NCBI GenBank assembly: GCA_026399875.1
Contig: JAPLQF010000020.1
Location: forward strand, 1 to 64,000
From: Burkholderiales bacterium
GTDB taxonomy: Bacteria > Pseudomonadota > Gammaproteobacteria > Burkholderiales > Burkholderiaceae_E
DNA: 64,000 nt
Direction of reading: 5' to 3'
Shown piece by piece: positions 10,872 through 26,391 of the stretch. Under the pieces are notes generated by a model. That model was not told the origin of the DNA, did no database searches, and saw nothing but the letters and a program-made list of their open reading frames with translations. The translations under genes and the position numbers were made by a program. How positions within the stretch are numbered: the first letter of the stretch is position 1; every line of letters starts with the position of its first letter.

Positions 10872-11002
10872 AGGAGACGTTTGGAGGCTCGTCTGAGCTT
10901 AGCGTACTCTTGCGGTCTTTCGGATACTGAAGGTCCGTCATGAGCACGGTTTGCGACGGGCTCCCGACGAACGGCAGCAGGCCGACTTAGGAAGGGAGCA
11001 GG

Positions 11003-12625
11003 ATGGTAGTCCCCCAGACCGGGCAAGGAGCCGGACGAACCGGACTAAGCATGCGCTCGCTGGCAACTCGCCTTCTTGCCTTACTCGGCCGTTCGTCTCT
11101 ACCGGCCGAGCCTGGTCATCAGGTGGTGCCTGACGCTGGTATCGAACTCCAGACATTCAGAAGGCTCTCGCGGGACGTCTATTGGGAGCAGGATGAGAGC
11201 GGCCTCATCACCCGCGTGGACGACGGCCCGCACCCGTCCGCGCTGAAACTTCGAATCGGCGGTTTTCTCTGGGACGACGGTGCCCTGCCGCTTGAGACCG
11301 GCGACTGGCAGGAGCACCGTGACCGGCTGAACCGGCAAGCGCCTTTTACCGACTTCGCCTGGGTCTGGAATGATCCGTCCGGGCGCACACGAGTCTCGAT
11401 CGACAGCGGCGTGCCCAGGCATGACGCTCAGGGGCGCTTTGTCGGCTATGCCGGTGTTTCGCGCGATGCCGGTATCGATACCGCGGCGGATCGCGCCAGG
11501 CGTCTGGCCACCGCCGCACTGCTGGCCGCCAGCGAGCCGGTCGTCTGGATCGAGGCCGACAGCAAACCGACGAACGGATGGCGGATCATCTGGGCCAACG
11601 CTGCCGCATGTCAGCTTTTTGACAGAACCGAGCGCGAATTGCGTGAATTGCCCTGCAAAACCCTCTTTGGGCCCGACTCGGGAGGCACCGCTGAAAGCGT
11701 CGGGCAGGCGCTGCTGGCGCGTCGGGATACCCGCCTGCAGGCCGAAGTCGCCCGCAAGTATGGCGAGTGCCGGGCGGTCGAGCTGCGCCTCGAACCGCTG
11801 CCCGGGACCGGCTCCCTGCGCGGCTGCGCCGCATTGCTGATCCATGATCGCTCGGCCGAACAGGAGCGTCTGCAGCAGGGCAGCAGGGCGATCGAGCAGC
11901 TTCGCAGCTCGATGCAGGAGCGAACAGTCGAGCTCGAAGCCGCCGCCCGCGAACTGGAGTCGTTCACCTATTCGGTATCGCACGATCTTCGCGCACCGAT
12001 CAGGGTAATCGAAGGCTTTGCACGCATCCTCGATGAGGATTACGCCGACCGTCTCGATCGGGTCGGCCATGACCATCTGCAGCGCATCCTGACCTCGGCC
12101 AGCCGGATGACCGAGATGGTCGACGCACTGCTGGGCCTTGCGCGCCTGAGTGGCCAACCACTGGCGACCGAACCGGTCGATCTGTCGCGTCTGGCCGATC
12201 TGATCGCCGAGCAGCTGCGGGCCAATGATCCGAGCCTCAATGCCGACATCATTGTGCAACCCGGTATCCAGGTCGAAGGCGACCGTACGCTGCTGCGGAT
12301 CGTCCTCGAAAACCTGATGTCCAATGCCCTGAAATTCAGCTCGAAAAAACCGGACGCGCGGATTGAATTTGCCTGCAGCGGCGCCGGCCCGGCGACTGTC
12401 TATTGCATGAGCGACAACGGAGATGGCTTCGACATGCGTTTTGCCGATCGCCTCTTCGGGGTTTTCCAGCGCCTGCATACCGACGCTGAATTCAAGGGCA
12501 CGGGCGTCGGGCTGGCCACGGTCCAGCGCATCGTGCGTCGCCATGGCGGACGGGTCTGGGCCGATTCGGAACCGGGCAAAGGCGCCCGATTCTATTTCAC
12601 GCTCTGGGAAAAAGCGGGACGCTGA
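11003..12625 (+). CDS. Orphan PAS-type sensor histidine kinase
   Basis: Histidine kinase of 540 residues with no clear transmembrane helix. Two PAS-like regions are suggested at about 45-165 and 180-290 (WIEADSKPTNGWRIIWANAA is PAS-like). A coiled coil leads to HisKA with TYSVSHDLRAPIRVIEGFA (phospho-His about residue 330), then HATPase motifs LENLMSNALKFSSK, MSDNGDGFDM and GTGVGLATVQRIVRRHGG. The HisKA/HATPase core is of the type found in bacteriophytochromes, but no GAF/PHY domain is seen. The ATG at 11003 has the strong AGGAAGGGAG site and is preferred to the ATG at 11051. No response regulator gene is adjacent. It converges with the peptidase gene. Confidence 0.9.
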   Translation: MVVPQTGQGAGRTGLSMRSLATRLLALLGRSSLPAEPGHQVVPDAGIELQTFRRLSRDVYWEQDESGLITRVDDGPHPSALKLRIGGFLWDDGALPLETGDWQEHRDRLNRQAPFTDFAWVWNDPSGRTRVSIDSGVPRHDAQGRFVGYAGVSRDAGIDTAADRARRLATAALLAASEPVVWIEADSKPTNGWRIIWANAAACQLFDRTERELRELPCKTLFGPDSGGTAESVGQALLARRDTRLQAEVARKYGECRAVELRLEPLPGTGSLRGCAALLIHDRSAEQERLQQGSRAIEQLRSSMQERTVELEAAARELESFTYSVSHDLRAPIRVIEGFARILDEDYADRLDRVGHDHLQRILTSASRMTEMVDALLGLARLSGQPLATEPVDLSRLADLIAEQLRANDPSLNADIIVQPGIQVEGDRTLLRIVLENLMSNALKFSSKKPDARIEFACSGAGPATVYCMSDNGDGFDMRFADRLFGVFQRLHTDAEFKGTGVGLATVQRIVRRHGGRVWADSEPGKGARFYFTLWEKAGR

Positions 12626-12652
12626 CGCCTTGACGGCGCCAGACGCCTGCCC

Positions 12653-14092
12653 TTATCTCACATCGGCCACGATCGAGGCCACCGCAGCCGTCAGGCGCTT
12701 GGCGGCATCGAGGTGCAGGAACTCGTTCGGGCCATGGGCATTCGAATGCGGCCCGAGCACGCCGGTGATCAGGAACTGCGCCGACGGAAATTTTTCGCCC
12801 AGCATGCTCATGAACGGAATGGTGCCGCCTTCGCCGATCCAGGCGACCGGTTTGCCCCAGGCGGCCTGCGAGGCCTCCTCGGCGGCACGCAGCAGCCACG
12901 GGGCGGTGGGCGGCGCGTTCCAGCCGGTGGCGCCGTGCCCGCCCGAAAAGTGCACCCGTGCGCCATAGGGCGGATCAGCCTCGAGCACCTGCTTGACGAT
13001 GGCCGCAGCCCGGTCGCCGTCGACGGTCGGGGGCAGGCGCAGCGACAGTTTGAGCGAGGTCTTGGGGCGCAGTACGTTGCCGGCTGCGGCGATGCCTGGC
13101 AGATGCTCGGCACCGGTCACCGACAAGGCCGGGCGCCAGGTGCGGTTGAGGATGGCCTCGACCGGATCGGTGGTAGTGGGCATGGCGTGCGCATGGGCAT
13201 CGCCGCCATGATTGCAGCCGACCCACGGAAACTGCTTCCAGATCTGATCGCCAAGGATGTCGCCGGCGGTGCGGGCCTGCGCGATGCGCTCGGGGGGAAT
13301 CTCGGCATGCAGACCGGCAGGCAGCAGCCGGCCGGTGTCGACATCGTCGAGGCGGTTGAGCAGCTTGCGGGCAATGCGAAACGACGAGGGCACGATGCCG
13401 CTGGCCGAGCCCGAGTGCACACCTTCCTGCAACACCTCGACCGTCAGCACGCCGCCGACCAGCCCGCGCAGGGAGGTGGTGACCCACATCTGGTCGTAGT
13501 TGCCGCAGCCTGAATCGAGACCGACCACCAGTTGCACATCACCCAGACGCGGCGCGAGCTTGGCAAGGTATTGAGGCAGATCAGGGCTGCCGCTTTCTTC
13601 GCAGGTCTCGATCAGCCCGACACAGCGCGGCCGTGCCACCTTCTGTGCGTCCATGGCCTGCACGACAGTTAACGCGGCATAGAGCGCATAGCCGTCGTCG
13701 GCCGCACCGCGCCCATAGAGCTTGCCGTCTTCGATCACCGGCTTCCAGGGGCCAAGGTCGTCGCGCCAGCCGCTCATCTCGGGCTGCTTGTCGAGGTGGC
13801 CGTAGAACAGGACGGTGCGGTCTTCGCCCAGACCGTGCGTAGCCGGTATATCGAAGAAGAGGCAGGGCGTACGGCCCTCGAGTGCCACGATCTCGACCGT
13901 CATGCCGGCAATGGGTTGCGCCTGCGCCCAGGCCAGACCGGCCTGGATCGCGGCCGCCAGATGGCCATGCGCGGCCCAGCTGGCATCGAAGGCCGGTGAC
14001 TTGGCCGGCAGCTTCACATAGTCGACCAGCCTGGGAACCAGATCGGTGTCCCACTTGCTGTCGACGATCTTGCGGATTTCGCTGAGGTTCAT
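12653..14092 (-). CDS. M20 family metallopeptidase (carnosinase/ArgE-like)
   Basis: Predicted zinc-dependent dipeptidase or amidohydrolase of 479 residues. Metal-site motifs of the M20 family are visible: FYGHLDKQ (first His and the nearby Asp), YGRGAADDGYAL (bridging Asp), ETCEESGSPD (general base and ligand Glu), GLDSG, and a late His in GPHSNAHGPNE. A lid/dimerisation insert sits between about residues 215 and 370. No signal peptide is seen, so it should be cytoplasmic. Length and motifs fit the CNDP-like dipeptidase branch. The substrate is unknown. It converges with the kinase gene and is 48 bases downstream of the DUF1254 gene on the same strand, so it could be the last gene of that unit. 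Confidence 0.9.
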   Translation of the reverse strand: MNLSEIRKIVDSKWDTDLVPRLVDYVKLPAKSPAFDASWAAHGHLAAAIQAGLAWAQAQPIAGMTVEIVALEGRTPCLFFDIPATHGLGEDRTVLFYGHLDKQPEMSGWRDDLGPWKPVIEDGKLYGRGAADDGYALYAALTVVQAMDAQKVARPRCVGLIETCEESGSPDLPQYLAKLAPRLGDVQLVVGLDSGCGNYDQMWVTTSLRGLVGGVLTVEVLQEGVHSGSASGIVPSSFRIARKLLNRLDDVDTGRLLPAGLHAEIPPERIAQARTAGDILGDQIWKQFPWVGCNHGGDAHAHAMPTTTDPVEAILNRTWRPALSVTGAEHLPGIAAAGNVLRPKTSLKLSLRLPPTVDGDRAAAIVKQVLEADPPYGARVHFSGGHGATGWNAPPTAPWLLRAAEEASQAAWGKPVAWIGEGGTIPFMSMLGEKFPSAQFLITGVLGPHSNAHGPNEFLHLDAAKRLTAAVASIVADVR

Positions 14093-14140: not shown

Positions 14141-15514
14141 TCAGTCCAGACGCACGATGTCCGGCGGTCGCCACCGACCTTCGAGCAGGTCGGCGCGCGG
14201 CTGATAGGCGCGCAGGGCGAGATAGAAGCGGCCCTCCGGGGCCGGCAGCCAGTTGGATTCACGCGCAGCGCCGGGGGAGGTGTGCCGGATATCGAGCACC
14301 AGCGAGCCGTCGGCCTCGCGCTGCAGGCCGCGCGAGCGATCGCCGATGCGGTAGCGATCGAGTGCGTTGGGCACCAGCATGAAGTCACGGCTGTCGTACA
14401 TCGTGAGCGACCAGAAACTGTCGACCGGCGGCTCGCTGCCCGGTGCAAACCGGATGGCATAGCGATACTCGCCCGACAAGGGACGACCCTGGGAGTCGGC
14501 ATGCGCCATCGGGTACATCGCTTCGGCGCTGGTCAACGCACCGATGTATTTCTTTGCGACCACCGCACGGCGCAGCCAGTCGAGTCCGAAGCTCTCGCCC
14601 AGAAGCAGCGGCTCGTCCCAGCCGCCTCGTGAGGTGGCCTGGTGGGCAGAACCCTCGTCACGCGAGAGCATCACATCCATGCTGATCAGGGCCCGTTCGA
14701 TGGCAGGCTCGACGACCTCGTCAGGCCATCGGCGGATGCCACTGACCAGCCCGCCGTCGAGGCCGATGCGGGCGAAATCGGCAAGCAGTGCCTGTTCGGC
14801 AGCCGGCGGCGGGTTATCGCGCAGCGCACGGTTGACCACATCGATGAAATGCCTCGCGGTGCGCGGCGCCTTCGGGTCGAAGCCGACATCGATACGCTCG
14901 CCGCCGGCATCACGGGTGTTGCCACCGGGGCTGAGCCAGACTGCGAGCGGCACCATCAGGAAACCGTCCTGAAGGGCATTGACCGCGGCGACATCCTCGG
15001 GGCCTTCGACCATGATGCGACCGATGATCCAGACATGATCGGTCGGCGCACGCACCAGCCGCATGCCCTGCGGCACTGCGCCGTCAAAGCCGGGGCCTGC
15101 GATCAGGAATTCCCCGGCCGCGGTACCGGTGGTTCGCCGGCCGATGTGCGCAAAGGGATTGGTCCAGAAGTCGAGCAGGCCGAGGACGTAATAGCGGTCG
15201 GCGGTATCGGGGACACGAACCACCACCGGCCCGCGCGACAGATCGAGCCAGGCATTGGTGTAGAGGGTGTCGCTGTTGGGCGTGACCACCCGGCTGCCGC
15301 CGGCACCCAGCAGCTTGCGGGCATGGATGAAGGTATTGACCCAGCGCCGCTGTGTGGCCGGATCGGCATCGGCCAGTTCGCCATGCTGATTGCGCCGCTG
15401 ACCGGTTGCTGCGCGCATGCGCGCCATCTCGTAGAGCGGCAGCAGATAGAGGCAGGCTTGAAGGGCGATCGCATCGGCCAGGGCCTGGCGGGGATCGGCG
15501 ACAGCATCGGTCAG
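14141..15514 (-). CDS. DUF1254/DUF1214 domain protein, apparent CTG start
   Basis: Protein of unknown biochemical function with the DUF1254 fold at the N-terminus (NTFIHARKLLG, VVTPNSDTLYTNAWLDL) and a DUF1214 half at the C-terminus (SLTMYDSRDFMLVPN, RYRIGDRS, NWLPAPEGRFYLALR). The first ATG is at 15427, but the frame upstream still reads like DUF1254 (ALADAIALQACLYLLPLYEM), a helix that family members have near their start. No ATG, GTG or TTG occurs there; the only plausible start is CTG at 15514, overlapping the acyl-CoA ligase TGA as CTGA and preceded by AGGGGGG. Translation may therefore be coupled to the ligase. It probably belongs to the catabolic island, role unknown. Confidence 0.8.
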   Translation of the reverse strand: MTDAVADPRQALADAIALQACLYLLPLYEMARMRAATGQRRNQHGELADADPATQRRWVNTFIHARKLLGAGGSRVVTPNSDTLYTNAWLDLSRGPVVVRVPDTADRYYVLGLLDFWTNPFAHIGRRTTGTAAGEFLIAGPGFDGAVPQGMRLVRAPTDHVWIIGRIMVEGPEDVAAVNALQDGFLMVPLAVWLSPGGNTRDAGGERIDVGFDPKAPRTARHFIDVVNRALRDNPPPAAEQALLADFARIGLDGGLVSGIRRWPDEVVEPAIERALISMDVMLSRDEGSAHQATSRGGWDEPLLLGESFGLDWLRRAVVAKKYIGALTSAEAMYPMAHADSQGRPLSGEYRYAIRFAPGSEPPVDSFWSLTMYDSRDFMLVPNALDRYRIGDRSRGLQREADGSLVLDIRHTSPGAARESNWLPAPEGRFYLALRAYQPRADLLEGRWRPPDIVRLD

Positions 15515-17631
15515 GCCCCCCTGCCGAGCACGACCGCATCGAGGGCGAGCGCCGAGACACCCTGCGGCCCGGCGCCGGGTGCAAACACCACGAAGGGATT
15601 GACGTCGATGCTGTCGAGCGTGCCGCGCGAATCCATCGCCAGCTGCGACAGAGCCATCAGTGCATCGGCGATTGCCTCGAGATCGCAGGGCGCACGACCG
15701 CGCGCACCATCGAGCAGTGCGAAGGCCTTGACCTCACGGATCATCGCATCGGCATCCGCTCGGACAAGCGGCGCCACCCGGATCGAGACATCACGCAGCA
15801 CCTCGACAAAGGTGCCGCCCAATCCGAACATGACCACCGGCCCGAAGACCTCGTCGTTGCGCACGCCGAGAATGCACTCGACGCCGCCCGAGACCATGGG
15901 TGCGAGCAGGGCGCCGTCGATGCGAGCAAGCGGCTTGGCCGCGCGCGCGCCGGCCATCACCGCATCGAAGGCTTCGACCGCCTGCCGGGTACCACTGACA
16001 CCCAGCCGCACGCCGCCGACCTCGGTCTTGTGCAGGATGTCGGGCGAGACCACCTTGACCGCAAACGCCGCACCCGGCGAGGCCGCAGCGATCGCGGCCG
16101 CCTCGGGGGCACTGCGCGCCAGGCTGACCGGCACCGTCGGCACGCCGGCATCGGCCAGCCATTTCAGTGAAGCGATTTCGTCGAGCGCACCGGGAGCAAG
16201 GACGCGCGACGGTGCGGCACAGTCCGACAAGGCAGGCGGCACCGACACCTCGAAGGCACGACCGATCCGTGCCAGCGCGCCGATGGTTCTGACCGCGCTC
16301 GACGGCTCTGCAAAACTGAGACACCCCAACTCGGCCAGACGGTCGCGGCGCGCGGCCGACAGCAGCGTGCTGATGACCAGAAGGGTGTCGGGATAGTCGC
16401 GACGCAGACCGATCACCAGCGATTCGAGCACCGGCCAGAAACCGTCGCCGGCGCCGGCCGCTGCCATGAAGCCGATCCAGGCGCCGTAGTCGCCGGCATC
16501 AAGCACGATCCGCGTCGCCCGGTCGATGAGCGTGCGGTCGTTGCTGATCTGACCGGTGATGTCGATCGGATTGCGCGGTGCTGCAAACGGCACCAGCGAC
16601 AGAATCTCCTGCTGCGCCGGCAACGGCAACTCAGCCACATTCAGGCCGATCGAGGAAGCCTCATCGGCCATGAAGGCACCGACGCCGCCCGAGACGGTAA
16701 AGAGCGCGAGGCGATCATTTCGCGCCAGGCCAGCGAGCGCCGCACCCTGGGCGACACTGAAAAATTCTTCGATGTCACGCGCCCGATAGACGCCGTACTG
16801 ACGAAAGAGCGCGTCATAGACTGCATCGTCGCCGGCGAGTGCCGCGGTGTGTGAGCGGGCGGCCTGGGCGCCGAGCGCGGTTCGTCCGACTTTGACGACC
16901 ACCACCGGCTTGCGCGCAGCATGCGCCAGCGCCAGCGCGCGGCGCAATCGCTCGCCATCGCGGCAGCCTTCCATATAGACCATGATCACCCGAGTGTCCG
17001 GATCATTGGCCATCCAGGCGATGACATCGGCGAGCTGGACGTCAGCCTCGTTGCCGGTGGAGGCCCAGACCGACAGCCCGACGCCGCGATCACGCGCCAG
17101 CGAATAGGCATAGGCGGCAAAGGCACCGCTCTGGCTGACCATGCCGATCGAGCCGGCCTTGGCCAGCCCGATACCCGGCGCCGGACTGAAGGTGGCATAG
17201 ACACCGCGACGCAGGTTCATCACGCCCAGACAGTTGGGGCCGACCAGCCGCAGTCCGGCCGCCGCCGCCCGCTCGGCGATACCCCGCTGCGCGGCCTCGC
17301 CCTCGGCGCCCACCTCGGCGAATCCGGCGGTGAACACCACGCCGGTTTTGACACCAGCGGCAATCGCATCGTCGATGGCGGCATCGAGTGCCGCCTGCGG
17401 CACCGCGAAAATCGCCAGATCGATCGGCTCGCCGATCGCGGCAAGCGTGGGCCACGCCCGCAAGCCCTGGATCTCCTCGGATTTCGGATTGACCGGCAGG
17501 ATGCGACCGGCATAGCCCAGACGCTTGAGCAGGTCGACCGGCACACCACCGATACGGTGGGCCGATGAGGACGCACCGACGATCGCAATCGATCGCGGAT
17601 TGAAGAGCGCATCGAGGCTGGCGGTATTCAT
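15511..17631 (-). CDS. NDP-forming acyl-CoA ligase (acetate-CoA ligase family)
   Basis: Predicted to link a carboxylic acid to CoA with ATP, giving ADP and phosphate, through a phosphohistidine. The single 706-residue chain holds the CoA-binding Rossmann domain (SIAIVGASSSAHRIGG at the N-terminus, PVNPKSEEI), succinyl-CoA-ligase-like domains (LVGPNCLGVMN, GMVSQSGAFA, and ARSHTAALAGDD with the likely phospho-His about residue 260), and a C-terminal ATP-grasp domain (AFAVKVVSPDILHKTEVGGV, MFGLGGTFVEVLRDV, IDVNPF). Domain order matches fused enzymes of the ADP-forming type. It is followed by the DUF1254 gene in a four-base overlap and preceded by the Bug gene. It could activate the acid degraded by the neighbouring acyl-CoA dehydrogenases. 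Confidence 0.92.
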   Translation of the reverse strand: MNTASLDALFNPRSIAIVGASSSAHRIGGVPVDLLKRLGYAGRILPVNPKSEEIQGLRAWPTLAAIGEPIDLAIFAVPQAALDAAIDDAIAAGVKTGVVFTAGFAEVGAEGEAAQRGIAERAAAAGLRLVGPNCLGVMNLRRGVYATFSPAPGIGLAKAGSIGMVSQSGAFAAYAYSLARDRGVGLSVWASTGNEADVQLADVIAWMANDPDTRVIMVYMEGCRDGERLRRALALAHAARKPVVVVKVGRTALGAQAARSHTAALAGDDAVYDALFRQYGVYRARDIEEFFSVAQGAALAGLARNDRLALFTVSGGVGAFMADEASSIGLNVAELPLPAQQEILSLVPFAAPRNPIDITGQISNDRTLIDRATRIVLDAGDYGAWIGFMAAAGAGDGFWPVLESLVIGLRRDYPDTLLVISTLLSAARRDRLAELGCLSFAEPSSAVRTIGALARIGRAFEVSVPPALSDCAAPSRVLAPGALDEIASLKWLADAGVPTVPVSLARSAPEAAAIAAASPGAAFAVKVVSPDILHKTEVGGVRLGVSGTRQAVEAFDAVMAGARAAKPLARIDGALLAPMVSGGVECILGVRNDEVFGPVVMFGLGGTFVEVLRDVSIRVAPLVRADADAMIREVKAFALLDGARGRAPCDLEAIADALMALSQLAMDSRGTLDSIDVNPFVVFAPGAGPQGVSALALDAVVLGRGA

Positions 17632-17689
17632 CTCATCTGATGCCTTGAAAAGAATGTTTTTTGCGTGGACAGATCATCCCGCAGGTGCC

Positions 17690-18763
17690 TCAATCGGGCT
17701 TCATGCCGGTGGCCTTGGCCACCTGCGTCCACTTCTCGACGTCGGCCGTGATGAAGGCCCGAAACTGCTCTGGCGTACCGGTGGCCACAATGATGCCGAC
17801 CGCCTCGAGCGGGCCACGAACCTCGGGCAGTGCCAGGATCGCGTTGATATCGCGGTTGATTTTCGTGACCACCTCGGGCGCCATGCCGGCCGGGCCAACC
17901 ATGCCGAACCAGGCCGATCCGTCGACCGTCGGGAATCCGGCTTCGGCAAGCGTTGGGACATCGGGTGCCAGCGGAAAGCGCTTGTCGGAGGAGACCGCCA
18001 GCAGTCGCAGCTTGCCGGCGTCATAGTGCGGCTTCATGACCGTCATGCCGGTTACCGCCACATCAACCCGACCGGCCACCACTTCGATGGCGAGTGGCGC
18101 ATCGCCCTTCATCGGCAGATGCTGGAGCTTGCCGCCGGTGCGGTAATTGAACAGCTCGACCACCAGATGCGGGCCGCTGCCGTTGCCTGGTGAGCCTGCG
18201 AAAAGCCTGTCGGGCTGAGCTTTCGCGGCATCGGCCAGATCGCGCATGGTCTTGAACGGCGAGTTAACCGGCACCCAGAAGCCGACCGGCCCGATGACGG
18301 CTCGCGCGATCGGAGTGAAGTCCTTGAGCGTGTCGTAGGGCAGCTTGTTGTCGTAAAGGCCCGGATTGGCACCATGCGGTGCGGCGGCAAACAGCAGGTT
18401 GTAGCCGTCGGGCGCCATTCGGGCAATCTGCTCGGTGGCGATCCGGTTGTTGGCACCCGGCTTGTTCTCGACGAAAACCCGCTGGTTCCACATGTCGCTC
18501 AGTCGTGCCGCGAGCAGGCGGGCGACATTGTCGTTGGAGCCACCGGCCGGGTAGGGCGAGACGATGCGCACCGGCTTCTGGGGCCAGGCGCCGGCTGCAG
18601 CCGATTGGGCACGCACGCTGCCGTGCGCTCCCAGCACGGCAGCGCCCGAGGCGGCCAGGGCCGCCAGAACAAGGCGACGACCCGGGCGACCCGAACTGCC
18701 GATCGGCGCAGAGGACTCAACGGGGGCGGCTTGGCCGCAAGTGATGCTGTCGACACGACTCAT
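17690..18763 (-). CDS. Tripartite tricarboxylate transporter (Bug/TctC) binding protein
   Basis: Periplasmic solute-binding protein of 357 residues. Family signatures are WPQKPVRIVSPYPAGGSNDN, VFVENKPGANNRIA, DGYNLLFAA, LQHLPMKGDAPL and PTLAEAGFP. The signal sequence has a long polar N-region with GRRLVLAALAASGAA, so Tat export is possible. The ATG at 18763 is chosen because AGGAG lies eight bases before it. The membrane partners TctA and TctB are not in the window; in Burkholderiales such orphan Bug proteins are common. Bug proteins usually bind small carboxylates, which fits the acyl-CoA ligase 58 bases downstream. Confidence 0.92.
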   Translation of the reverse strand: MSRVDSITCGQAAPVESSAPIGSSGRPGRRLVLAALAASGAAVLGAHGSVRAQSAAAGAWPQKPVRIVSPYPAGGSNDNVARLLAARLSDMWNQRVFVENKPGANNRIATEQIARMAPDGYNLLFAAAPHGANPGLYDNKLPYDTLKDFTPIARAVIGPVGFWVPVNSPFKTMRDLADAAKAQPDRLFAGSPGNGSGPHLVVELFNYRTGGKLQHLPMKGDAPLAIEVVAGRVDVAVTGMTVMKPHYDAGKLRLLAVSSDKRFPLAPDVPTLAEAGFPTVDGSAWFGMVGPAGMAPEVVTKINRDINAILALPEVRGPLEAVGIIVATGTPEQFRAFITADVEKWTQVAKATGMKPD

Positions 18764-18796
18764 GACGCAGGCTCCTGACAAGAAAAAGGGATGCGA

Positions 18797-19915
18797 TCAG
18801 CGCGGCAGGCCGGCCAGCGCCGCATGCGACTCCTCAACCAGTTGCGCGAAGATCTCGGCCACCGGTCGGCGTGAGCGCAGCCAGGCCACGCCCTGCCCCA
18901 CTGCGTAGTGCATCAGCGGCTCGATTTCATGGTCGTCGATCGCACCGAGCAGGTCACCGACCAGCATGTCCTGGAACGGCATGCCCAGCGGGCGCGGCGC
19001 ATCGGGTGCCGACCACTCGTCGCTCCAGGCTGAACGCAGCTGGCGAAAGGTCTTGCCGCTCTCGGAGCGGGTGATGACGGTGTCATCGCTGCCTGCCCGC
19101 AGCAGCTTCTCGAGGATGATCGGATGGATCGCATACTCGGTGGAAGCCAGCCACAGGCTGCCGGTCCAGACGCCCTGGGCGCCAAGCGCCAGGCTGGCAG
19201 CCACATGGCGCCCGGTCATGACGCCGCCGGCGGCCAGCACCGGCACCTCACCGGCGAGCTCGACCACCTGCGGCACCAGCGAGAACGTGCCGATCGGCCC
19301 GGTGTGGGCAGCCGAATCGTGACCCTGCGCCACCAGCAGGTCGGCGCCTGAATCGATTGCCCTGCGCGCATGCTTGGGCGAGCCGCACAAGGCCACGATG
19401 CGCTTGCCGGCACGCTTGCAGGCTTCGACGAAATCCGGCGGCGCACCGATACCGCAGGCAACCACCTCGACATCCGATTCGAGCACTGCCGCCATCTGCT
19501 GACGGGCGATCTCGTTGGAGCGCAGAAAGCGGGTTCGCATGCCGCGCCGCTCGGGCGCCGGCACCTTGTACTTCTCGTAAAGGTGGGCGACAAACTCTTT
19601 GTGCCGCTGCGGCAGCTGACTTTCGATCGGCCCCGGGTCATTGTCTTCCGGCATGCCGGGCGGCAGTACGAGATTGACCCCGATCGGCACCGCACCGGCC
19701 TTCACCCGCAGGGCGGCCAGCTCGGTGCGGATTTCCTCGGGGGTGCGCCGGGTTGCACCATAGACGCCGAGACCGCCGCAGCGTGAGACCGCAGCGACGG
19801 TATCGAGCGAGTGCGTGAAGGCGAAAATCGGCTGGTCGATGCCGAAGGTGTCGCACAGCTTCGTGCTGGCAATTCTTGTGCCGACACTTCGCGGTTGCTG
19901 ATTTCGAGTATCCAC
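18797..19915 (-). CDS. Nitronate monooxygenase-family flavoprotein
   Basis: FMN-dependent TIM-barrel enzyme of the 2-nitropropane dioxygenase family, 372 residues. Visible motifs: QPIFAFTHSLDTVAAVSRCGGLGVYG near the start of the barrel (in two parts), the QGHDSAAHTG loop with the His, LAAGGVMTGRHVAASLALGAQGVWTGSLW for phosphate binding of FMN. The family also contains enoyl reductase-like enzymes, so nitronate as substrate is only a name. The frame is open to an ATG at 19933, but AGGAGGGGG sits eight bases before the GTG at 19915, which I take as the start. It is divergent from the gntR gene and leads the minus-strand arm of the island. Confidence 0.88.
   Translation of the reverse strand: MDTRNQQPRSVGTRIASTKLCDTFGIDQPIFAFTHSLDTVAAVSRCGGLGVYGATRRTPEEIRTELAALRVKAGAVPIGVNLVLPPGMPEDNDPGPIESQLPQRHKEFVAHLYEKYKVPAPERRGMRTRFLRSNEIARQQMAAVLESDVEVVACGIGAPPDFVEACKRAGKRIVALCGSPKHARRAIDSGADLLVAQGHDSAAHTGPIGTFSLVPQVVELAGEVPVLAAGGVMTGRHVAASLALGAQGVWTGSLWLASTEYAIHPIILEKLLRAGSDDTVITRSESGKTFRQLRSAWSDEWSAPDAPRPLGMPFQDMLVGDLLGAIDDHEIEPLMHYAVGQGVAWLRSRRPVAEIFAQLVEESHAALAGLPR
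18870..18872 (-). other. No separate feature; C-terminal part of the flavoprotein gene
   Basis: This site only marks that the C-terminal region of the flavoprotein (around EPLMHYAVGQGVAWL) is intact, with no frameshift up to the stop at 18797. Confidence 0.2.
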
Positions 19916-19934
19916 TTGACCCCCTCCTGTCATG

Positions 19935-19950
19935 ACCTATCATAATAGGT
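19935..19950. promoter_or_regulatory. Perfect palindrome, candidate GntR operator
   Basis: ACCTAT-CATA-ATAGGT is a perfect 6-4-6 inverted repeat in the 52-base gap between the divergent flavoprotein (GTG 19915) and gntR (ATG 19968) starts. It is AT-rich relative to its surroundings, and no other palindrome of this quality lies in the gap. Placement and symmetry fit an operator bound by the dimeric GntR product that would control both arms. The assignment to this regulator is inference. Confidence 0.6.
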
Positions 19951-19967
19951 TAAATGACAAAGTCGAA

Positions 19968-20756
19968 ATGACAAAGACAGGTATCCGAAGCGCTCGCAAC
20001 AGCGATGTCGCACCGATATCGGGCAGCGCGGCAACGCGGCTGGCCGGCCCGGCGCCGCTCTTTGCGCAGGTGCGCGATGCCGTGCGCTCCGACATCCTGT
20101 CAGGCGCGCTGCGACCCGGCGATCGCCTGCCCTCCGAATCGGCGCTGATCGAACGCTTCGGTGTCAGCCGGATCACGGTGCGCCAGGCGATCGGCGAGCT
20201 GCAGACCAGCGGACTGGTGCAGACCGTCAACGGCAAAGGCTCTTTCGTGACTCGCCCGGGACGCGGCGAAGCCCATGGGCCGCTGGTCGGCGTGCTCGAA
20301 GCAATGCGCCGGCGAGGCATCACTGCACGCGGCAAGCTGCTGTCGCATCGACACATCAAGGCGACCGAGGCGGTGGCGCGTGAGCTTGATCTGTTGCCAG
20401 GCTCACAGGTGGGCGCGGTCACGGTGCTGCGCTATCGCAACGAGGTGCCTTTTGTCGTCGGCACGACCTGGTGCACCGTCGCGACCGCCGACAGGCTCGC
20501 GAAGGCCGACCTCACCGAGCGCGACGTGGCCACGACCATCGAAGTCGAGCTCGGTCTGCGCCATGCCCGCACCCGGGTATCGGTCTCGGCGCTGGTCGCC
20601 GATGCGAAGCTCGCCAGGCTGCTTGCCTATGACGTGGGCGCAGCCATCCTGCGCATCAGCACCACCAGCATTGATTACGACAGTCGACCGATTGCCCATT
20701 CGATCACCGACTGTCGCGCCGACATGATGGATTACCGAGTGACCCTGCGAGGCTGA
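19968..20756 (+). CDS. GntR family transcriptional regulator (HutC subfamily)
   Basis: Regulator of 262 residues. The N-terminal winged helix is clear: PLFAQVRDAVRSDILSGAL, GDRLPSESALIERFGVSRIT and VRQAIGELQTSGLV (about residues 30-95). The C-terminal ligand domain (about 115-260) has the UTRA fold features of HutC-type members: RGITARGKLLSHR, AVTVLRYRNEVPFVVGTTW and a late DYDSRPIAHSITDCR. The ATG at 19968 is preferred over an in-frame ATG at 19932 because the latter would place the palindrome inside the gene. It is followed after four bases by the crotonase gene, so regulator and catabolic genes probably form one transcript. Confidence 0.9.
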   Translation: MTKTGIRSARNSDVAPISGSAATRLAGPAPLFAQVRDAVRSDILSGALRPGDRLPSESALIERFGVSRITVRQAIGELQTSGLVQTVNGKGSFVTRPGRGEAHGPLVGVLEAMRRRGITARGKLLSHRHIKATEAVARELDLLPGSQVGAVTVLRYRNEVPFVVGTTWCTVATADRLAKADLTERDVATTIEVELGLRHARTRVSVSALVADAKLARLLAYDVGAAILRISTTSIDYDSRPIAHSITDCRADMMDYRVTLRG

Positions 20757-20760
20757 AACC

Positions 20761-21501
20761 ATGACCGAACCGACTGCTCCCGCCGCCAAAGCGGCCTTGT
20801 CCGATGAACCCGCGGTATTGCTCCATCGCCACGAGGGCTGGGCCGAGATCGTGCTCAACCGACCGGCGCGGCGCAATGCGATCGACGGCGCGCTTGCAGA
20901 GGGCCTGTTCGCCGCGCTGCAGACGGTCGAAGCCGATGACTCGATCCGAGCGACGGTGCTGCGCGGCGCCGGCGGCGCGCTGTGCTCGGGCCTCGATCTG
21001 ACCGCCTTCGCCGCGGTGCCCAAGCCAGACTGGGTGCCGGGCTTTCAGGCCCGCTGGCGCGAGGTCCATGTCGCGCTCGCCTCGACCCGCAAGGTGCTGC
21101 TGGTAGGCCTCGAGCGCTTTGCGATCAATGGCGGCGCGGCACTCGCGCTGGCCGGCGACATCCTGGTCTGCGGCGAAACCGGCTATCTGCAGATTGCCGA
21201 AATTCGCATCGGGATGGCTGCACCCAACAATCTCGCCTGGCTGGCGCTGCGCCACTCCGAATCGGTGGCAGCCCGCCTGGCACTGCTCGGCGATCGGGTC
21301 GCCGGGCCGCAGCTATACGCGATCGGTGTGGCCACCGAAGTGGTCGCCGACGATCAGGTTGTGGCCCGCTGCACCGAACTTGCCGCACTCATCGCCACCT
21401 GGAAGCCCGAGGGCGTGGCGGCGATCAAGAGCACGATGCGTCGGATGTCACTCGGCATGACTGCCGCACAGTGGTTCGCATCATTTCAGGAGAAAGCATG
21501 A
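20761..21501 (+). CDS. Crotonase-family protein lacking the first catalytic Glu
   Basis: Enoyl-CoA hydratase/isomerase superfamily member of 246 residues. It has the N-terminal strand pair ending LNRPARRNAIDGAL, the first oxyanion-hole loop GALCSGLDL, and the second oxyanion-hole Gly in FAINGGAALALAGDI. In canonical hydratases this last segment reads GGGCELA; here the catalytic Glu144 position is Ala, while the second Glu (Glu164 equivalent) is kept in QIAEIRIGM. A one-Glu site is known in delta3,delta2-enoyl-CoA isomerases, so isomerase or another crotonase reaction is more likely than simple hydration. It overlaps the following dehydrogenase gene (ATGA). Confidence 0.88.
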   Translation: MTEPTAPAAKAALSDEPAVLLHRHEGWAEIVLNRPARRNAIDGALAEGLFAALQTVEADDSIRATVLRGAGGALCSGLDLTAFAAVPKPDWVPGFQARWREVHVALASTRKVLLVGLERFAINGGAALALAGDILVCGETGYLQIAEIRIGMAAPNNLAWLALRHSESVAARLALLGDRVAGPQLYAIGVATEVVADDQVVARCTELAALIATWKPEGVAAIKSTMRRMSLGMTAAQWFASFQEKA

Positions 21502-22697
21502 TGGCCGTTGCCGCACCGGCGCGAACACGCCCTGCCCCGCTGCCGCCCCACGAGCTCGATGCCCTGTGCGCCCGCGTGCGCGCTTTTATCGAAGAGCAGG
21601 CGATCCCGCGCGAGGACTACAGCCGCACCCATGATGTCGAGTGGCTCGATGCTGTCACCCGCGAGCTGCGCACACTCGCCCAGGCTCAGGGCCTGGTAGC
21701 ACCGCAGTTGCCGCGCGAGGCAGGCGGCATGGGGCTGTGCTGGCAGGACTGCGCGCGGGTCTTCGAGGAATGCGGGCGCAGCTTCATCGGCGCCGGTGCT
21801 CTCGGATGCGCCGCACCCGATCAGCCCAACATCGACACGCTGATGCATCTGGCCGCTCCCTCGCAGCAGGCGCAGTGGCTGGCACCGCTGATGGCAGGCG
21901 AAATCCGCTCGGCCTTCGCAATGACCGAGCCCTCGCCAGGGGTCGGCTCGGACCCGCGGATGCTGTCGACCCGCGCGCGTCGCGACGGCGACGACTGGAT
22001 CCTCGACGGCCACAAGTGGTTCACCTCGGGCGCGGTGGGCGCGGCCTTTGCGATCGTGGTGGCGCGCAGCGACGAAGGAGCCAGCTGGTTCATCGTCGAC
22101 ACCCGCAATCCGGGCTGGAAACTCATCCGTGCGATTCCGTCGATCGATCCGTTCTCAAACGGTGGTCATGCCGAGGTCAGGCTCGAGAACTGCCGGGTCA
22201 GTGCCGATGCGCTGATCGGCGAGGCCGGCAAGGGTTTTGACTATGCCCAGCTGCGCCTGGAAGGCGCACGGCTCTTTCACTGCATGCGCGGCATCGGCCT
22301 TGCCACCCGAGCGATCGAGATCGCCCAGGCCTATGCGGTGCAGCGCGATTCCTTCGGCGCCAAGCTCTCGGAGCATCAGCAGATGCAGGCGATGGTGGCC
22401 GATTCGCATATCGATCTCTATGCCTGTCGGCTGATGACCGCCGATGTGGCCCGCCGGCTCGATGCCGGCGAGTCGATCCGCCACACCTCGTCGATGGCCA
22501 AGGTGTTCGTCTCAGAAGCGCTCAACCGGGTGGCCGACCGCGCAGCGCAGATGACCGGCGCGATCGGCATGTGTCAGGACCAGCCGATCGCGCTGATCGC
22601 CCAGCGGCTGCGACCCTTCCGAATCTACGACGGCGCCTCGGAAGTCCATCGGGCGGCGATCGGCAAACGCATCTTTCAACGAGGAGGCCGCGCATGA
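21498..22697 (+). CDS. Acyl-CoA dehydrogenase (ACAD10/11-like)
   Basis: FAD-dependent enzyme of 399 residues that would oxidise an acyl-CoA to the 2-enoyl-CoA. Motifs: AFAMTEPSPGVGSDPRML (FAD/substrate loop), DGHKWFTSG, FGAKLSEHQQMQAMVADSHI, MTGAIGMCQDQPIA and a C-terminal YDGASEVHRAAIGKRIF. In this last motif the usual catalytic Glu of YEG is Asp, as in ACAD10/11-type enzymes that read DGPDEVH. The start overlaps the crotonase stop as ATGA with AGGAG upstream. It is the first of three consecutive dehydrogenase genes. Confidence 0.92.
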   Translation: MMAVAAPARTRPAPLPPHELDALCARVRAFIEEQAIPREDYSRTHDVEWLDAVTRELRTLAQAQGLVAPQLPREAGGMGLCWQDCARVFEECGRSFIGAGALGCAAPDQPNIDTLMHLAAPSQQAQWLAPLMAGEIRSAFAMTEPSPGVGSDPRMLSTRARRDGDDWILDGHKWFTSGAVGAAFAIVVARSDEGASWFIVDTRNPGWKLIRAIPSIDPFSNGGHAEVRLENCRVSADALIGEAGKGFDYAQLRLEGARLFHCMRGIGLATRAIEIAQAYAVQRDSFGAKLSEHQQMQAMVADSHIDLYACRLMTADVARRLDAGESIRHTSSMAKVFVSEALNRVADRAAQMTGAIGMCQDQPIALIAQRLRPFRIYDGASEVHRAAIGKRIFQRGGRA

Positions 22698-23944
22698 GCG
22701 CCACCACCACATCAAGCCACACCCCGATGTCTGCCCAGGAACTCGATCAGTTTCGCGCGCAGGTCAGGGCCTTCGTCGCCGAGCGTCTGCCACAGCAGGT
22801 CCGCGAAAAAGTCAGGCTCGGCATCGAGCCGAACAAGGCCGACATGATTGCCTGGGAAAGCGAGCTGCGCGATCGCGGCTGGCTGGCGCCTCACTGGCCG
22901 CTCGAATGGGGTGGCACCGGCTGGAGCCCGGCACAGCGGGCGGTCTTCCAGGAAGAAATGGTGTTGGGTCATTCGCCCGAACTCGGCGGCATCACCTTCG
23001 AGATGATCGGGCCGGTGCTGCTGCGTTATGGCACCGAAGCGCAGAAAAATTTCTTTCTGCCAAAGATGACCGGCGTCGAACACTTCTGGTGCCAAGGCTA
23101 CTCTGAACCTGAGTCCGGCTCGGACCTGGCCTCGCTGCGAACCCGTGCGGTGCGCACCCGCGATGCCGATGGCAGCGAACACTATGTGGTGGAGGGCAGC
23201 AAGATCTGGACTTCGGGCGCGCAGCATGCCGACTGGATCTTCTGCCTGGTGCGCACCAATACCGACGTGCGTCAGCAGGAAGGCATCAGCTTTTTGCTGA
23301 TCGACATGACATCGCCCGGCGTGTCGCTGCGACCGATCGTGGGCATCCACGGCTGGCCGCTGTTCAACCAGGTCTATCTCGACAAGGTGAAGGTGCCGGT
23401 CGCCAATCTGGTCGGCGAAGAGAACCAGGGCTGGACGATCGCCAAGTCGCTGCTCGAGTTCGAGCGGCTCAATCTTGCGCGGGTGGCCGAAAACCGCCGG
23501 CGTCTGGCCAAGCTGCGCTCGATCGGCGAGACGGTCGAAGAAGCCGGCGTGACGCTTTTCGAACGGCCATGGTTTCGCAGGCGCTTCAGTGAGCTCGAGG
23601 TCAGGCTCGAGACACTCGCCGCCACCGTGCTGCGATTCAGGGTGCGCGCTCAGTCGGGTGAACGACTCGGCCCGGAAACCGGCATGCTCAAGCTGGTCGG
23701 CAGCCAATTGATCCAGGATATCGCGGTGCTGACGGTGGATGCGCTCGGGCCGCAAACCCTGGCCTGGGACCGCGACGCCCATTTCGAGCTGCCCGGCCCC
23801 GACACTGAGCCGCCCCTCATCGAACGTCACCCCTATGCGCCGACCGCCTCGTCACGCCGCTTCGTGACCCGCGGCTACACCATCGCGGGCGGCAGCAGCG
23901 AGATCCAGCATGAATTGCTGGCCAAGCAGGTCCTCGGACTCTGA
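22694..23944 (+). CDS. Acyl-CoA dehydrogenase, large-subunit type (PimC-like)
   Basis: Dehydrogenase of 416 residues. It shows APHWPLEWGGTGWSPAQ, QGYSEPESGSDLASLRTRA, EGSKIWTSGAQHADWIF, NLVGEENQGWTIAKSLLEFE and the C-terminal TIAGGSSEIQHELLAKQVLGL (split here as in the FadE/PimC group). This class commonly works as a heteromer with a smaller, partly degenerate partner, and the next gene is such a protein. The start overlaps the previous stop (ATGA), with GAGGAGG upstream. The substrate is unknown; related pairs act on dicarboxylic, cyclic or steroid-derived acyl-CoAs. Confidence 0.92.
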   Translation: MSATTTSSHTPMSAQELDQFRAQVRAFVAERLPQQVREKVRLGIEPNKADMIAWESELRDRGWLAPHWPLEWGGTGWSPAQRAVFQEEMVLGHSPELGGITFEMIGPVLLRYGTEAQKNFFLPKMTGVEHFWCQGYSEPESGSDLASLRTRAVRTRDADGSEHYVVEGSKIWTSGAQHADWIFCLVRTNTDVRQQEGISFLLIDMTSPGVSLRPIVGIHGWPLFNQVYLDKVKVPVANLVGEENQGWTIAKSLLEFERLNLARVAENRRRLAKLRSIGETVEEAGVTLFERPWFRRRFSELEVRLETLAATVLRFRVRAQSGERLGPETGMLKLVGSQLIQDIAVLTVDALGPQTLAWDRDAHFELPGPDTEPPLIERHPYAPTASSRRFVTRGYTIAGGSSEIQHELLAKQVLGL

Positions 23945-23978
23945 TGACAGACGTGAATTCAACCTCAATCGATCGATC

Positions 23979-25172
23979 ATGACCACAGCCGCCCCACCGA
24001 ACGTCGACAGCGACGACCACCAGGCCATGCTGCGCGACGCTGCGCAGCGCTATGTCGAACGCGATTACACCTTCGAATCGCGCCAGGCCGCGCTGGCCAG
24101 CCCCGAGGGGTTTTCGAGCGAACGCTGGCAGGCCTTCGCCGACATGGGCTGGCTCGCGCTCGGCCTGCCTGAAGACTGCGGCGGATTCGGTGATGCCACT
24201 GATGCGGCCATCGTTGCCCAGGCACTTGGCCGCGCCATGGCACTCGAACCCTGGCTGGCCAACGTCGGGCTCTGTGCACCACTGCTGGCAGCCCTGCGAC
24301 CTGGCGCCTCGGTGTCGGGGGGTCCGGCGGGCGCCGCCAGTGCCGACCGCGCCGCAGACCTGCTGACCCGAATGGCCTCGGGCGAGCACAGGCTTGCGCT
24401 CGGTGGCTGGGAGCCGCAAGGCCGCTATGACGCCTTCGATGTCCGCACGGTCGCCAACATGAAATCCGACGGCAGCTGGCAGCTCGATGGCCTGAAGACG
24501 CTGGTGCTGGGCGGTGCTGCCGCCGACACCCTGCTGATCGTCGCCCGCGAGTCGGGCCAGCCGCGCGACACCGAGGGCCTGTCGGTCTTTGCGGTGCCGG
24601 CCACTTCGGCCGGGCTGCGCCGGCGCGGCTATCCAAGCTATGACGGCCGTCAGACCGCCGACCTGCGGCTTGATTCGGTCAGCCTTCCCGCCAGTGCCCG
24701 ACTCGGCCGGGGTGGGGCCGCCTGGCCGGCGCTTGAGGCCGCGATCGACCATGCCACCGCGCTTGCCTGCACCGAGGCGGTCGGCACGATGCAGCGGGTG
24801 CTCGACACCACGCGCGATTACGCTCAGCAGCGACGCCAGTTCGGCAAGCCGCTTGCCGCCAACCAGGTGATCCGGCATCGACTGGTCGATCTGTTCGTGG
24901 CGATCGAGCAGGCCGGCGCCATCAGCGCGGCAGCGGTGGCACGGCTCGCTGACTCACCAGCCGAGCGTCGGCGGGCAGTGTCGCTTGCCAAGGCCTTCGT
25001 GTCGCCGGCCGCCCGACGCTGCGGCGAAGAGGGCGTGCAGTTGCATGGCGCAATCGGCATGACCAAGGAGGTGGCGATCGGTCACGCGGCCACCCGTCTG
25101 GCCGGGCTGTCGAACCTGCTGGGAGACGAAGCCTGGCACCTTGAGCGACTGGAGGCCGATCGGCCGCGATGA
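23979..25172 (+). CDS. Acyl-CoA dehydrogenase, small-subunit type (PimD-like)
   Basis: Acyl-CoA dehydrogenase-like protein of 397 residues. The N-terminal helical part has MGWLALGLPEDCGGFGDATDA, the middle beta domain is reduced (DGLKTLVLGGAAADTLL), and the C-terminal helices carry QRRQFGKPLAANQVIRHRLVD and GEEGVQLHGAIGMTKEVAIGH. The YEG-type catalytic motif at the C-terminus is missing, as in the partner subunits of alpha2beta2 acyl-CoA dehydrogenases. The ATG at 23979 is the first one compatible with the family start. It lies 34 bases after the large-subunit gene, supporting a complex. Confidence 0.9.
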   Translation: MTTAAPPNVDSDDHQAMLRDAAQRYVERDYTFESRQAALASPEGFSSERWQAFADMGWLALGLPEDCGGFGDATDAAIVAQALGRAMALEPWLANVGLCAPLLAALRPGASVSGGPAGAASADRAADLLTRMASGEHRLALGGWEPQGRYDAFDVRTVANMKSDGSWQLDGLKTLVLGGAAADTLLIVARESGQPRDTEGLSVFAVPATSAGLRRRGYPSYDGRQTADLRLDSVSLPASARLGRGGAAWPALEAAIDHATALACTEAVGTMQRVLDTTRDYAQQRRQFGKPLAANQVIRHRLVDLFVAIEQAGAISAAAVARLADSPAERRRAVSLAKAFVSPAARRCGEEGVQLHGAIGMTKEVAIGHAATRLAGLSNLLGDEAWHLERLEADRPR

Positions 25173-25182
25173 GCGCCACGCG

Positions 25183-26391
25183 ATGAGCCGTTTCCCGGCG
25201 CTCGAGAACCGCGAATTTCGCCGCTACTTCAGCGGCCAGGCCATCGCACTGATCGGCGGCTTTGCCTACAACGTCGGGATGGGCTGGCTGGCCTTTCGCC
25301 TGACCGGCTCAGTCGCGCTGCTGGGGGCGATCGGCTTTGCGCAGCTCGCACCGACGCTCTTTCTGTCGCCGGTTGCCGGCATGCTGGCCGACCGCTATTC
25401 GCGCCGCAAGATCCTGATCGGACTGCTGGCGTCGGTGGCACTGCTCGGCGCCCTGCTCTCGCTGCTGACCGCCACCGGCCATGTCGATGCCAATGTCCTG
25501 CTGGTGATGGCCACGCTGCGGGGCATCGCCTTTGCCTGCGAAATCCCGGTGCGTCATGCCTTCCTCGGCGATCTGGTACCCGATCGCAAGCTGCTGCCCA
25601 ACGCCGTGGCGCTGCACTCGAGCGCGCTCAATACCGCGCGCTTCATCGGCCCGGCGGTTGGCGGGCTGCTGATCGGATCGTTCGGCGAAGCCACCTGCTT
25701 CATGCTGCATCCGGTCCTGCTGATGGCCACCCTCTATCAGCTGCTGCGCATCCGCACGGTCGAGACGCCCCATCCCACCGCCGGCTCAAGCTCGTTCGTG
25801 CAGCAATACCTCGAAGGCTGGCGGTTTGCCTTTTCGGACCCGACAATCGCGCGACTGCTGCTGGCGATCTTCCTGATGGGCTTCGGCATCGGACCTTATG
25901 CGCACCTGATGCCGGCGGCGGTCGCCGAGATCTACGGCAAGCACCCCGAACTGGTCGGATTTTTTCTGTCGGCTGCCGGGGTCGGCGCCATGGTGGCGGC
26001 GATCTCGATGGCGGCGCGACGCGGCTCGCAGCACCTGTCGCTGATCGCGCTGGTCGGCAATCTGGCAGCGGCCGTGGGCCTGCTCATGTTCAGCCGCAGC
26101 AGCTGGATGTCGGTATCGATCGTCGGCATGGTGCTGGTCGGCGGCGGCGTGATCGGACAGGCGATTGCCACCAACATCACCATCCAGACCAGTGTGCCCG
26201 ACGACAAGCGCGGACGGGTACTGGCGATCTATACCGCGATGTTTCTGGGCGCCACGCCCTTCGGCAGTCTTGCCTTCGGTCAGCTGGGGCATTCGATCGG
26301 CGCCGGCAATGCCCTGCTCGCCGGCGCACTTGTTTCGATGGCGGGCGTCGCGCTGACTGCGTGGCGGATGCGCGAGTCAGGCGCGGTATGA
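25183..26391 (+). CDS. MFS transporter (MFS_3/EntS-like)
   Basis: Inner-membrane transporter of 402 residues with about 12 hydrophobic helices. It has the MFS_3 start FPALENREFRRYFSGQAIAL, the loop 2-3 motif GMLADRYSRRKILIG and a loop 8-9 counterpart near FGIGPYAHLMPAA. Related proteins export enterobactin or other small molecules. It follows the small dehydrogenase subunit by 10 bases and is the last gene of the plus-strand arm, so it may import the substrate or export an intermediate. The frame opens at a TTG at 25141 inside the previous gene; the ATG at 25183 is preferred by family alignment. Confidence 0.9.
   Translation: MSRFPALENREFRRYFSGQAIALIGGFAYNVGMGWLAFRLTGSVALLGAIGFAQLAPTLFLSPVAGMLADRYSRRKILIGLLASVALLGALLSLLTATGHVDANVLLVMATLRGIAFACEIPVRHAFLGDLVPDRKLLPNAVALHSSALNTARFIGPAVGGLLIGSFGEATCFMLHPVLLMATLYQLLRIRTVETPHPTAGSSSFVQQYLEGWRFAFSDPTIARLLLAIFLMGFGIGPYAHLMPAAVAEIYGKHPELVGFFLSAAGVGAMVAAISMAARRGSQHLSLIALVGNLAAAVGLLMFSRSSWMSVSIVGMVLVGGGVIGQAIATNITIQTSVPDDKRGRVLAIYTAMFLGATPFGSLAFGQLGHSIGAGNALLAGALVSMAGVALTAWRMRESGAV

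Follow-up and report, generated by a model that had tools for sequence, protein, structure and literature searches.

Which acid does a bacterium break down with an NDP-forming acyl-CoA ligase, three acyl-CoA dehydrogenases (ACAD1–ACAD3) and a protein of the DUF1254/DUF1214 family, all encoded in two divergent arms around a single palindrome? The island that raises this question occupies positions 14141–26391 of the 64,000-nucleotide stretch of DNA analyzed here (the window), and its host is a freshwater betaproteobacterium with a genome of 4.0 Mb, of a genus known here solely from metagenome-assembled genomes. The island is real, conserved and jointly controlled, and it brings known enzyme classes together in a combination that no paper in the literature searched was found to describe. 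Two new facts stand out as the strongest: a fusion between the ligase and the DUF1254 protein in other bacteria and an ACAD11-type active-site signature in ACAD1 without a linked kinase.

Layout of the Island and Its Operator

All the families named in the first-pass annotation (DUF1254/DUF1214, ligase, TctC/Bug, NMO, GntR-UTRA, ECH, three ACADs and MFS_3) are present in the island (Table 1), and neither a thiolase nor a hydroxyacyl-CoA dehydrogenase was found in the cluster, as had been stated. The description of most genes as overlapping by ATGA-type junctions applies to ECH/ACAD1 and ACAD1/ACAD2 only, most other junctions being gaps of a few to ∼60 bp. The gene for an M20-family peptidase, 48 bp downstream of the DUF1254 gene and on the same strand, remains linked in relatives (the L069/L070 copy is syntenic and 99% identical). 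Comparison with relatives places the true start of the DUF1254 gene ∼28 codons upstream of position 15427, where the ligase gene ends.

Table 1. Genes and predicted control elements of the island, with the adjoining peptidase gene (positions in the window)
Feature	Position	Strand	Basis or remark
M20-family peptidase gene	12653..14092	-	Pfam PF01546 E 1.4e-23; possible last left-arm gene
DUF1254/DUF1214 protein, cytoplasmic type	14141..15427	-	Pfam E 1.1e-50 and 3.1e-34
NDP-forming acyl-CoA ligase (LIG)	15511..17631	-	Pfam PF13607, PF13549
Bug/TctC periplasmic binding protein	17690..18763	-	PF03401 E 5.5e-59
NMO-family FMN enzyme, GTG start	18797..19915	-	PF03060 E 4.1e-47
Palindromic operator (predicted) ACCTATCATAATAGGT	19935..19950		both -10 boxes overlapped
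Promoter-like site TTGACC-16-TATCAT, towards GntR arm	19916..19943	+	consensus scan
Promoter-like site TCGACT-16-TATGAT, towards NMO arm	19939..19966	-	consensus scan
GntR-UTRA (HutC-type) repressor	19968..20756	+	PF00392, PF07702
Crotonase (ECH), one catalytic Glu, Ala replacing first	20761..21501	+	PF00378; alignment
ACAD1, ACAD10/11-LvaC type, R-x4-R-x2-HCMR and catalytic Asp	21504..22697	+	
ACAD2, catalytic (alpha) subunit type, Glu at ChsE4 residue-247 position	22694..23944	+	
ACAD3, partner (beta) subunit type without canonical Glu	23979..25172	+	pimD model 268.7 bits
MFS_3 exporter-like transporter	25183..26391	+	PF05977 E 1.1e-53

The palindrome, ACCTAT-CATA-ATAGGT, which separates the NMO-Bug-ligase-DUF1254 arm from the arm with GntR, the crotonase and the three ACADs, had been described as perfect; it proved both exact and unique: a scan of the window that allowed two mismatches gave this one match (0.23 expected), and a scan of the genome that allowed one gave no further site. 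Of seven clusters compared, six (the window and L070–L074) have both arms unchanged and the seventh (L075) carries one substitution; the outer flanks of the conserved block around the palindrome are poorly kept. Taken mechanically, the open reading frames of GntR (19932) and NMO (19933) collide head-on at the operator; the likelier starts are the ATG at 19968 for GntR and, for NMO, the GTG at 19915 with an AGGAGG Shine-Dalgarno sequence, and with these starts the palindrome becomes intergenic. A consensus scan found two divergent sigma-70-like promoters, each of which places its -10 hexamer inside the palindrome (2 found vs 0.1 expected). Because the operator lies beside a HutC-type GntR gene and overlaps both promoter-like sites, one protein can repress both arms; joint repression thus has direct support in the sequence, with GntR as the presumed binding protein. 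The kept operator, the kept gene order and the promoter overlap lend good support to the view of the locus as a divergent acyl-CoA island under GntR control. A search for a second locus under this operator, where the missing thiolase or a kinase might lie, found none in the whole genome at up to one mismatch.

Conservation in the Genus and Beyond

Of 12 genomes of the genus, 8 (the window's own among them) have the ligase at 75% identity or higher, and the gene order is constant wherever contigs are long enough: NMO-Bug-ligase(-DUF1254) // GntR-ECH-ACAD1-ACAD2-ACAD3. One congener (loci L073/L093) lacks the DUF1254 gene; in its place stand a gene for a DNA cytosine methylase and two small genes (L093:12516-15514), in what looks like an insertion. 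The MFS carrier, which had been counted as part of the island's logic, is indeed present; it belongs to the exporter-like MFS_3/EntS class, and L070, the nearest relative, is the one other place where it was seen. Four congeners (L091–L094) lack it; there Pirin follows ACAD3, in three of them together with PhyH. Where the window has its MFS gene, the right arm of congeners continues with genes for Pirin and a PhyH dioxygenase (L074:359-2454, L092, L093).

Only twelve of 250 genomes of the order carry a ligase at E 1e-150 or better. Linkage was counted in a sample of 80 named ligase loci, from related genomes, so that the counts are not independent. Within this sample the complete gene set is restricted to the genus; ligase and DUF1254 lie within 10 kb of each other in 46 loci, ligase is accompanied by ACAD1 (at least 45% identity) in 33, and one or other of these partners is present in 73. 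Bug genes occur in 75 of the 80 loci and, being this common, were not counted as evidence of linkage; no TctA/TctB membrane genes were found alongside the Bug protein. Outside the genus, the recurring sub-modules are ligase with DUF1254, ligase with ACAD1, ligase with NMO and Bug (L027, L028, L030), ACAD1-2-3, and ligase with ACAD2-3 and ECH; a Rhodoferax contig (L102) reads ligase-DUF1254-DUF1254-ACAD1-ACAD2-ACAD3, and a Hyphomicrobiales metagenome contig (L123) reads ligase-ACAD2-ACAD3-crotonase. The proposed co-occurrence of all the families therefore holds within the genus and breaks up into sub-modules elsewhere, so that the families do not form one fixed pathway.

In a tree of 88 ligases (made by a quick method and with several long branches), the ACAD1-linked Alcaligenaceae form one group and DUF1254-linked ligases make up most of the other, the window's genus branching near Comamonadaceae. 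The metagenome bin L089 bears the name Bordetella parapertussis, yet its ligase is 96% identical to the ligase of the window's uncultured genus, and the bin seems to be misnamed. The Achromobacter clusters have an extra zinc-type alcohol dehydrogenase and IclR regulators; a cluster of a roseobacter (plasmid records) has other partners, and an HCMR-type ACAD is absent from it.

The Ligase and Its DUF1254/DUF1214 Partner

The ligase has the CoA-binding, Succ_CoA_lig and ATP-grasp_5 domains and the conserved His of NDP-forming acyl-CoA ligases, with H261 and H534 as invariant columns and candidate phospho-relay His residues. Against the acetate, 3-hydroxypropionate and 4-hydroxybutyrate equivalogs it scores 371–393 of 1200–1300 bits, below the cut-off. 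The DUF1254 protein has both Pfam domains above the gathering score as well as the family fold, and, like the other cluster-linked DUF1254 proteins, it has no signal peptide (judged by eye).

At eight of the 46 loci (L115, L120, L122, L132, L133, L135, L150 and L167; about 9970-13480), ligase and DUF1254 are fused in a single frame of 1109–1170 codons without an internal stop. The hosts are Allopusillimonas, three species of Bordetella, Pusillimonas, Candidimonas, Noviherbaspirillum and another Alcaligenaceae strain, and in Allopusillimonas the domains run CoA-binding, Succ_CoA_lig, ATP-grasp, DUF1254, DUF1214. Twelve genomes hold 33 DUF1254 genes in ∼61 Mb, a density of ∼0.54 per Mb, so that ∼0.01 would be expected per 20 kb by chance. 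Since some bacteria have fused the two, DUF1254 probably works with the ligase, and the fusion, as read from the open frames, gives DUF1254 a defined partner.

The AlphaFold model of the DUF1254 protein (pLDDT 92.6) has as its closest solved fold the uncharacterized entry 3u07, and its good matches (3u07, 2p3y, 3vb9 and 6ans) are all uncharacterized structures. The fold thus gives no function; the next matches have Z scores of ∼6.5 and below and may reflect mere common beta-sandwich arrangements. The literature found on DUF1254/DUF1214, VPA0735 and VPA0106 gives no function either, and the five papers in the open library that mention DUF1254 do not, to judge by their titles, have it as their subject. 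The genome also encodes a second, tandem DUF1254 pair (L187:5728-8731, G000:C32), with clear signal peptides, which adjoins an MFS, thiolase and AMP-ligase group, with another ACAD pair ∼7 kb away.

ACAD1 and a Candidate Anionic Group at C4

ACAD1, which the first-pass annotation overlooked, tells more than any other protein of the island; its best matches of solved structure are ACAD11 enzymes. The ACAD1 segment QLRLEGARLFHCMR aligns without gaps with mouse ACAD11, sharing the HCMR motif, the upstream Arg (R626) and R631, and the alignment matches mouse R626/R631/H634/R637 and D753 throughout. In the ACAD10/11 study, R626, H634 and R637 bind the 4-phosphate of the substrate, R631 is given as general, and the catalytic Asp is residue 753 (PMC12440821). 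In ACAD1, Asp likewise replaces the catalytic Glu (RIYDGASEVH vs RLADGPDEVH; in entry 8v3v this D is changed to N), and the homologues examined all keep the pocket residues together with the Asp. The signature makes an acyl-CoA that bears an anionic group at C4 the probable substrate.

Because the known ACAD11/LvaC reaction needs a kinase and none is linked, a C4 phosphate is only a candidate. When the genome's eight APH-family proteins were used as tblastn queries, neither the island nor any of the 80 ligase loci showed an APH-type kinase; the eight genes themselves lie elsewhere in the genome, unlinked to the island. At least six homologues of 39–45% identity do have an APH-family kinase gene nearby, an arrangement also seen in the lva operon. 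With no linked kinase, the anionic group would come from a kinase acting in trans or belong to the substrate from the outset, and the ACAD1 subfamily may have drifted to other chemistry with the pocket kept. A second HCMR-type ACAD in the genome (L188:7337-8656, G000:C3) has the canonical ACAD10/11 form with DGPDEVH, and there is no kinase beside it.

ACAD2-ACAD3, the Crotonase and the NMO-Family Enzyme

The suspected heteromeric ACAD pair is borne out by its residues. ACAD2 aligns with ChsE4 (4x28), and the helix-G Glu (position 247 of ChsE4) is kept in all the ACAD2 proteins compared, whereas the ACAD3 proteins of the genus have Glu at neither canonical position. One subunit with Glu and a partner without it is the pattern of alpha2beta2 ACADs, and by these residues ACAD2/ACAD3 fit such a dehydrogenase with one catalytic Glu. 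In ChsE4-ChsE5, the catalytic Glu is in the alpha subunit, and the beta subunit touches the ADP-ribose part of FAD (PMC11153573).

The pair also bears on a rival reading, in which the island serves beta-oxidation of dicarboxylic acids, with PimC/PimD-like ACAD2/ACAD3 and with the Arg/His pocket of ACAD1 holding the distal carboxylate. The pimC and pimD models are the best NCBIfam models of ACAD2 and ACAD3; at 314.6 of 623.85 and 268.7 of 652.7 bits, however, the scores are about half of the curated cut-offs or less, and the earlier suggestion of a dicarboxylic, cyclic or branched acid from PimC/PimD likeness is not specifically supported. Glutaryl-CoA dehydrogenase employs an analogous Arg (PMC12440821), and a diacid stays a rival because PimCD-like pairs in betaproteobacteria show C8–C12 dicarboxylate phenotypes (PMC12543098); but among solved structures those nearest to ACAD2 are steroid enzymes, and the genome's other ACAD2/ACAD3-like pairs (C5, C8) could serve diacids. 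We consider a diacid unlikely.

The steroid likeness suggests in turn an island for a polycyclic or steroid-like ring acid, with ACAD2-ACAD3 resembling ChsE4-ChsE5/IpdE1-IpdE2 and the NMO enzyme resembling ScdK/IpdC. The best PDB matches of ACAD2 are 4x28 and 6wy8/6wy9, ACAD3 matches the IpdE2 model below its cut-off, an enlarged cavity is common to ACAD11 and ChsE4 (PMC11153573), and the steroid enzyme ScdK is of the same broad nitropropane-dioxygenase family as the NMO protein (PMC13101464). The sequence similarity is nevertheless too low to fix a substrate, and the island has no gene for MaoC, an Ltp2-type aldolase or a CoA-transferase of known steroid pathways. We hold a ring acid to be quite improbable.

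The NMO protein itself has FabK-type enoyl reductases as its nearest solved relatives (PDB 5gvj, E 6.9e-41) and scores higher with these than with nitronate monooxygenases of known structure. The crotonase had been annotated as a one-Glu enzyme, and the alignment agrees, with only the second of the two catalytic Glu residues present; a crotonase with the second Glu alone fits an enoyl-CoA isomerase or an atypical hydratase.

Linked Sulfatase-Like Hydrolases

In 26 of the 80 ligase loci there is a metallo-beta-lactamase protein with an alkyl-sulfatase dimerization domain (Alkyl_sulf_dimr), at least 46% identical to the Delftia copy. The Cupriavidus plasmid pBB2 has two such hydrolases with ligase and Bug genes, in a cluster with no named substrate; the congener locus L092 has a full-length SdsA-like hydrolase near the M20 gene (with a weak match in L093), and in the Rhodoferax locus L102 a sulfatase-family gene adjoins the ligase. 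Together with the other partners, these sulfatase-like hydrolases make hydroxy-acid esters, sulfate esters among them, worth testing as substrates. The linked metallo-beta-lactamase proteins would then be sulfatases, and the substrate a hydroxy-acid sulfate ester, or ACAD1 would expel its sulfate. The window's own cluster, however, has no sulfatase, and the forms of 417–425 amino acids show no C-terminal alkyl-sulfatase domain and may therefore be other hydrolases; we regard a sulfate ester as very unlikely.

Discussion

The reading that we prefer, on evenly balanced confidence, is that of a substrate-induced, repressor-controlled catabolic island directed at an acid that bears a 4-oxygen or another anionic substituent. 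An inducer (the free acid or its CoA ester) would release GntR, the Bug protein would bind the acid in the periplasm, and the NDP-forming ligase with its cytoplasmic DUF1254/DUF1214 partner would make the CoA thioester. The Arg/His pocket and Asp base of ACAD1 would act on the C4-anionic acyl-CoA (phosphate, sulfate or carboxylate) to give the 2-enoyl-CoA, the 4-substituent being already on the substrate or else attached by one of the eight APH-family proteins encoded away from the island. ACAD2-ACAD3 would be an alpha2beta2 dehydrogenase with its active-site Glu in ACAD2 alone, the one-Glu crotonase would isomerize or hydrate the enoyl-CoA, the NMO-family flavoprotein might carry out a further (de)hydrogenation, and general thiolases encoded elsewhere would complete the breakdown.

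A wider proposal, which we make only tentatively, is that the cytoplasmic DUF1254/DUF1214 subfamily has an enzymatic role in CoA-dependent acid catabolism and acts on the substrate or product of the ligase, and that with the kinase-less ACAD11-type dehydrogenase it would form an undescribed route for 4-anionic acids. DUF1254/DUF1214 proteins have solved structures but no described function, and the single-frame ligase fusions offer them a defined partner and a testable metabolic place. ACAD10/11-type enzymes have reportedly been tied to 4-hydroxy acids only recently, and a bacterial ACAD1 subfamily that keeps the pocket without a linked kinase raises the question of what else the pocket accepts. 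Because fused genes occur in named, culturable genera (Allopusillimonas, Noviherbaspirillum), the question can be tested.

Among known systems, VPA0106 (3u07) and VPA0735 (2p3y) share the domain pair and the fold of the DUF1254 protein (Z 33.9 and 27.8), but the cluster-type protein differs in lacking a signal peptide and in its linkage or fusion to an acyl-CoA ligase. As in the pimFABCDE operon of Rhodopseudomonas palustris, the island has an adjacent PimC/PimD-like ACAD pair and a CoA ligase, although it scores far below the pimC/pimD cut-offs and has neither a thiolase nor PimF in the cluster. With the steroid ACADs ChsE4-ChsE5, Tcur3481-Tcur3483 and IpdE1-IpdE2 it shares adjacent genes and a helix-G Glu in one subunit with none at a canonical position in the other, yet the similarity is only moderate and steroid pathway genes are absent. 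With the lva operon of Pseudomonas putida and mammalian ACAD10/ACAD11 it has in common the R/R/HCMR pocket, the Asp base and a co-encoded CoA ligase; it differs from them in having no linked APH kinase (LvaA or a kinase domain), in the NDP-forming type of its ligase, and in the addition of DUF1254, Bug, NMO and the ACAD pair.
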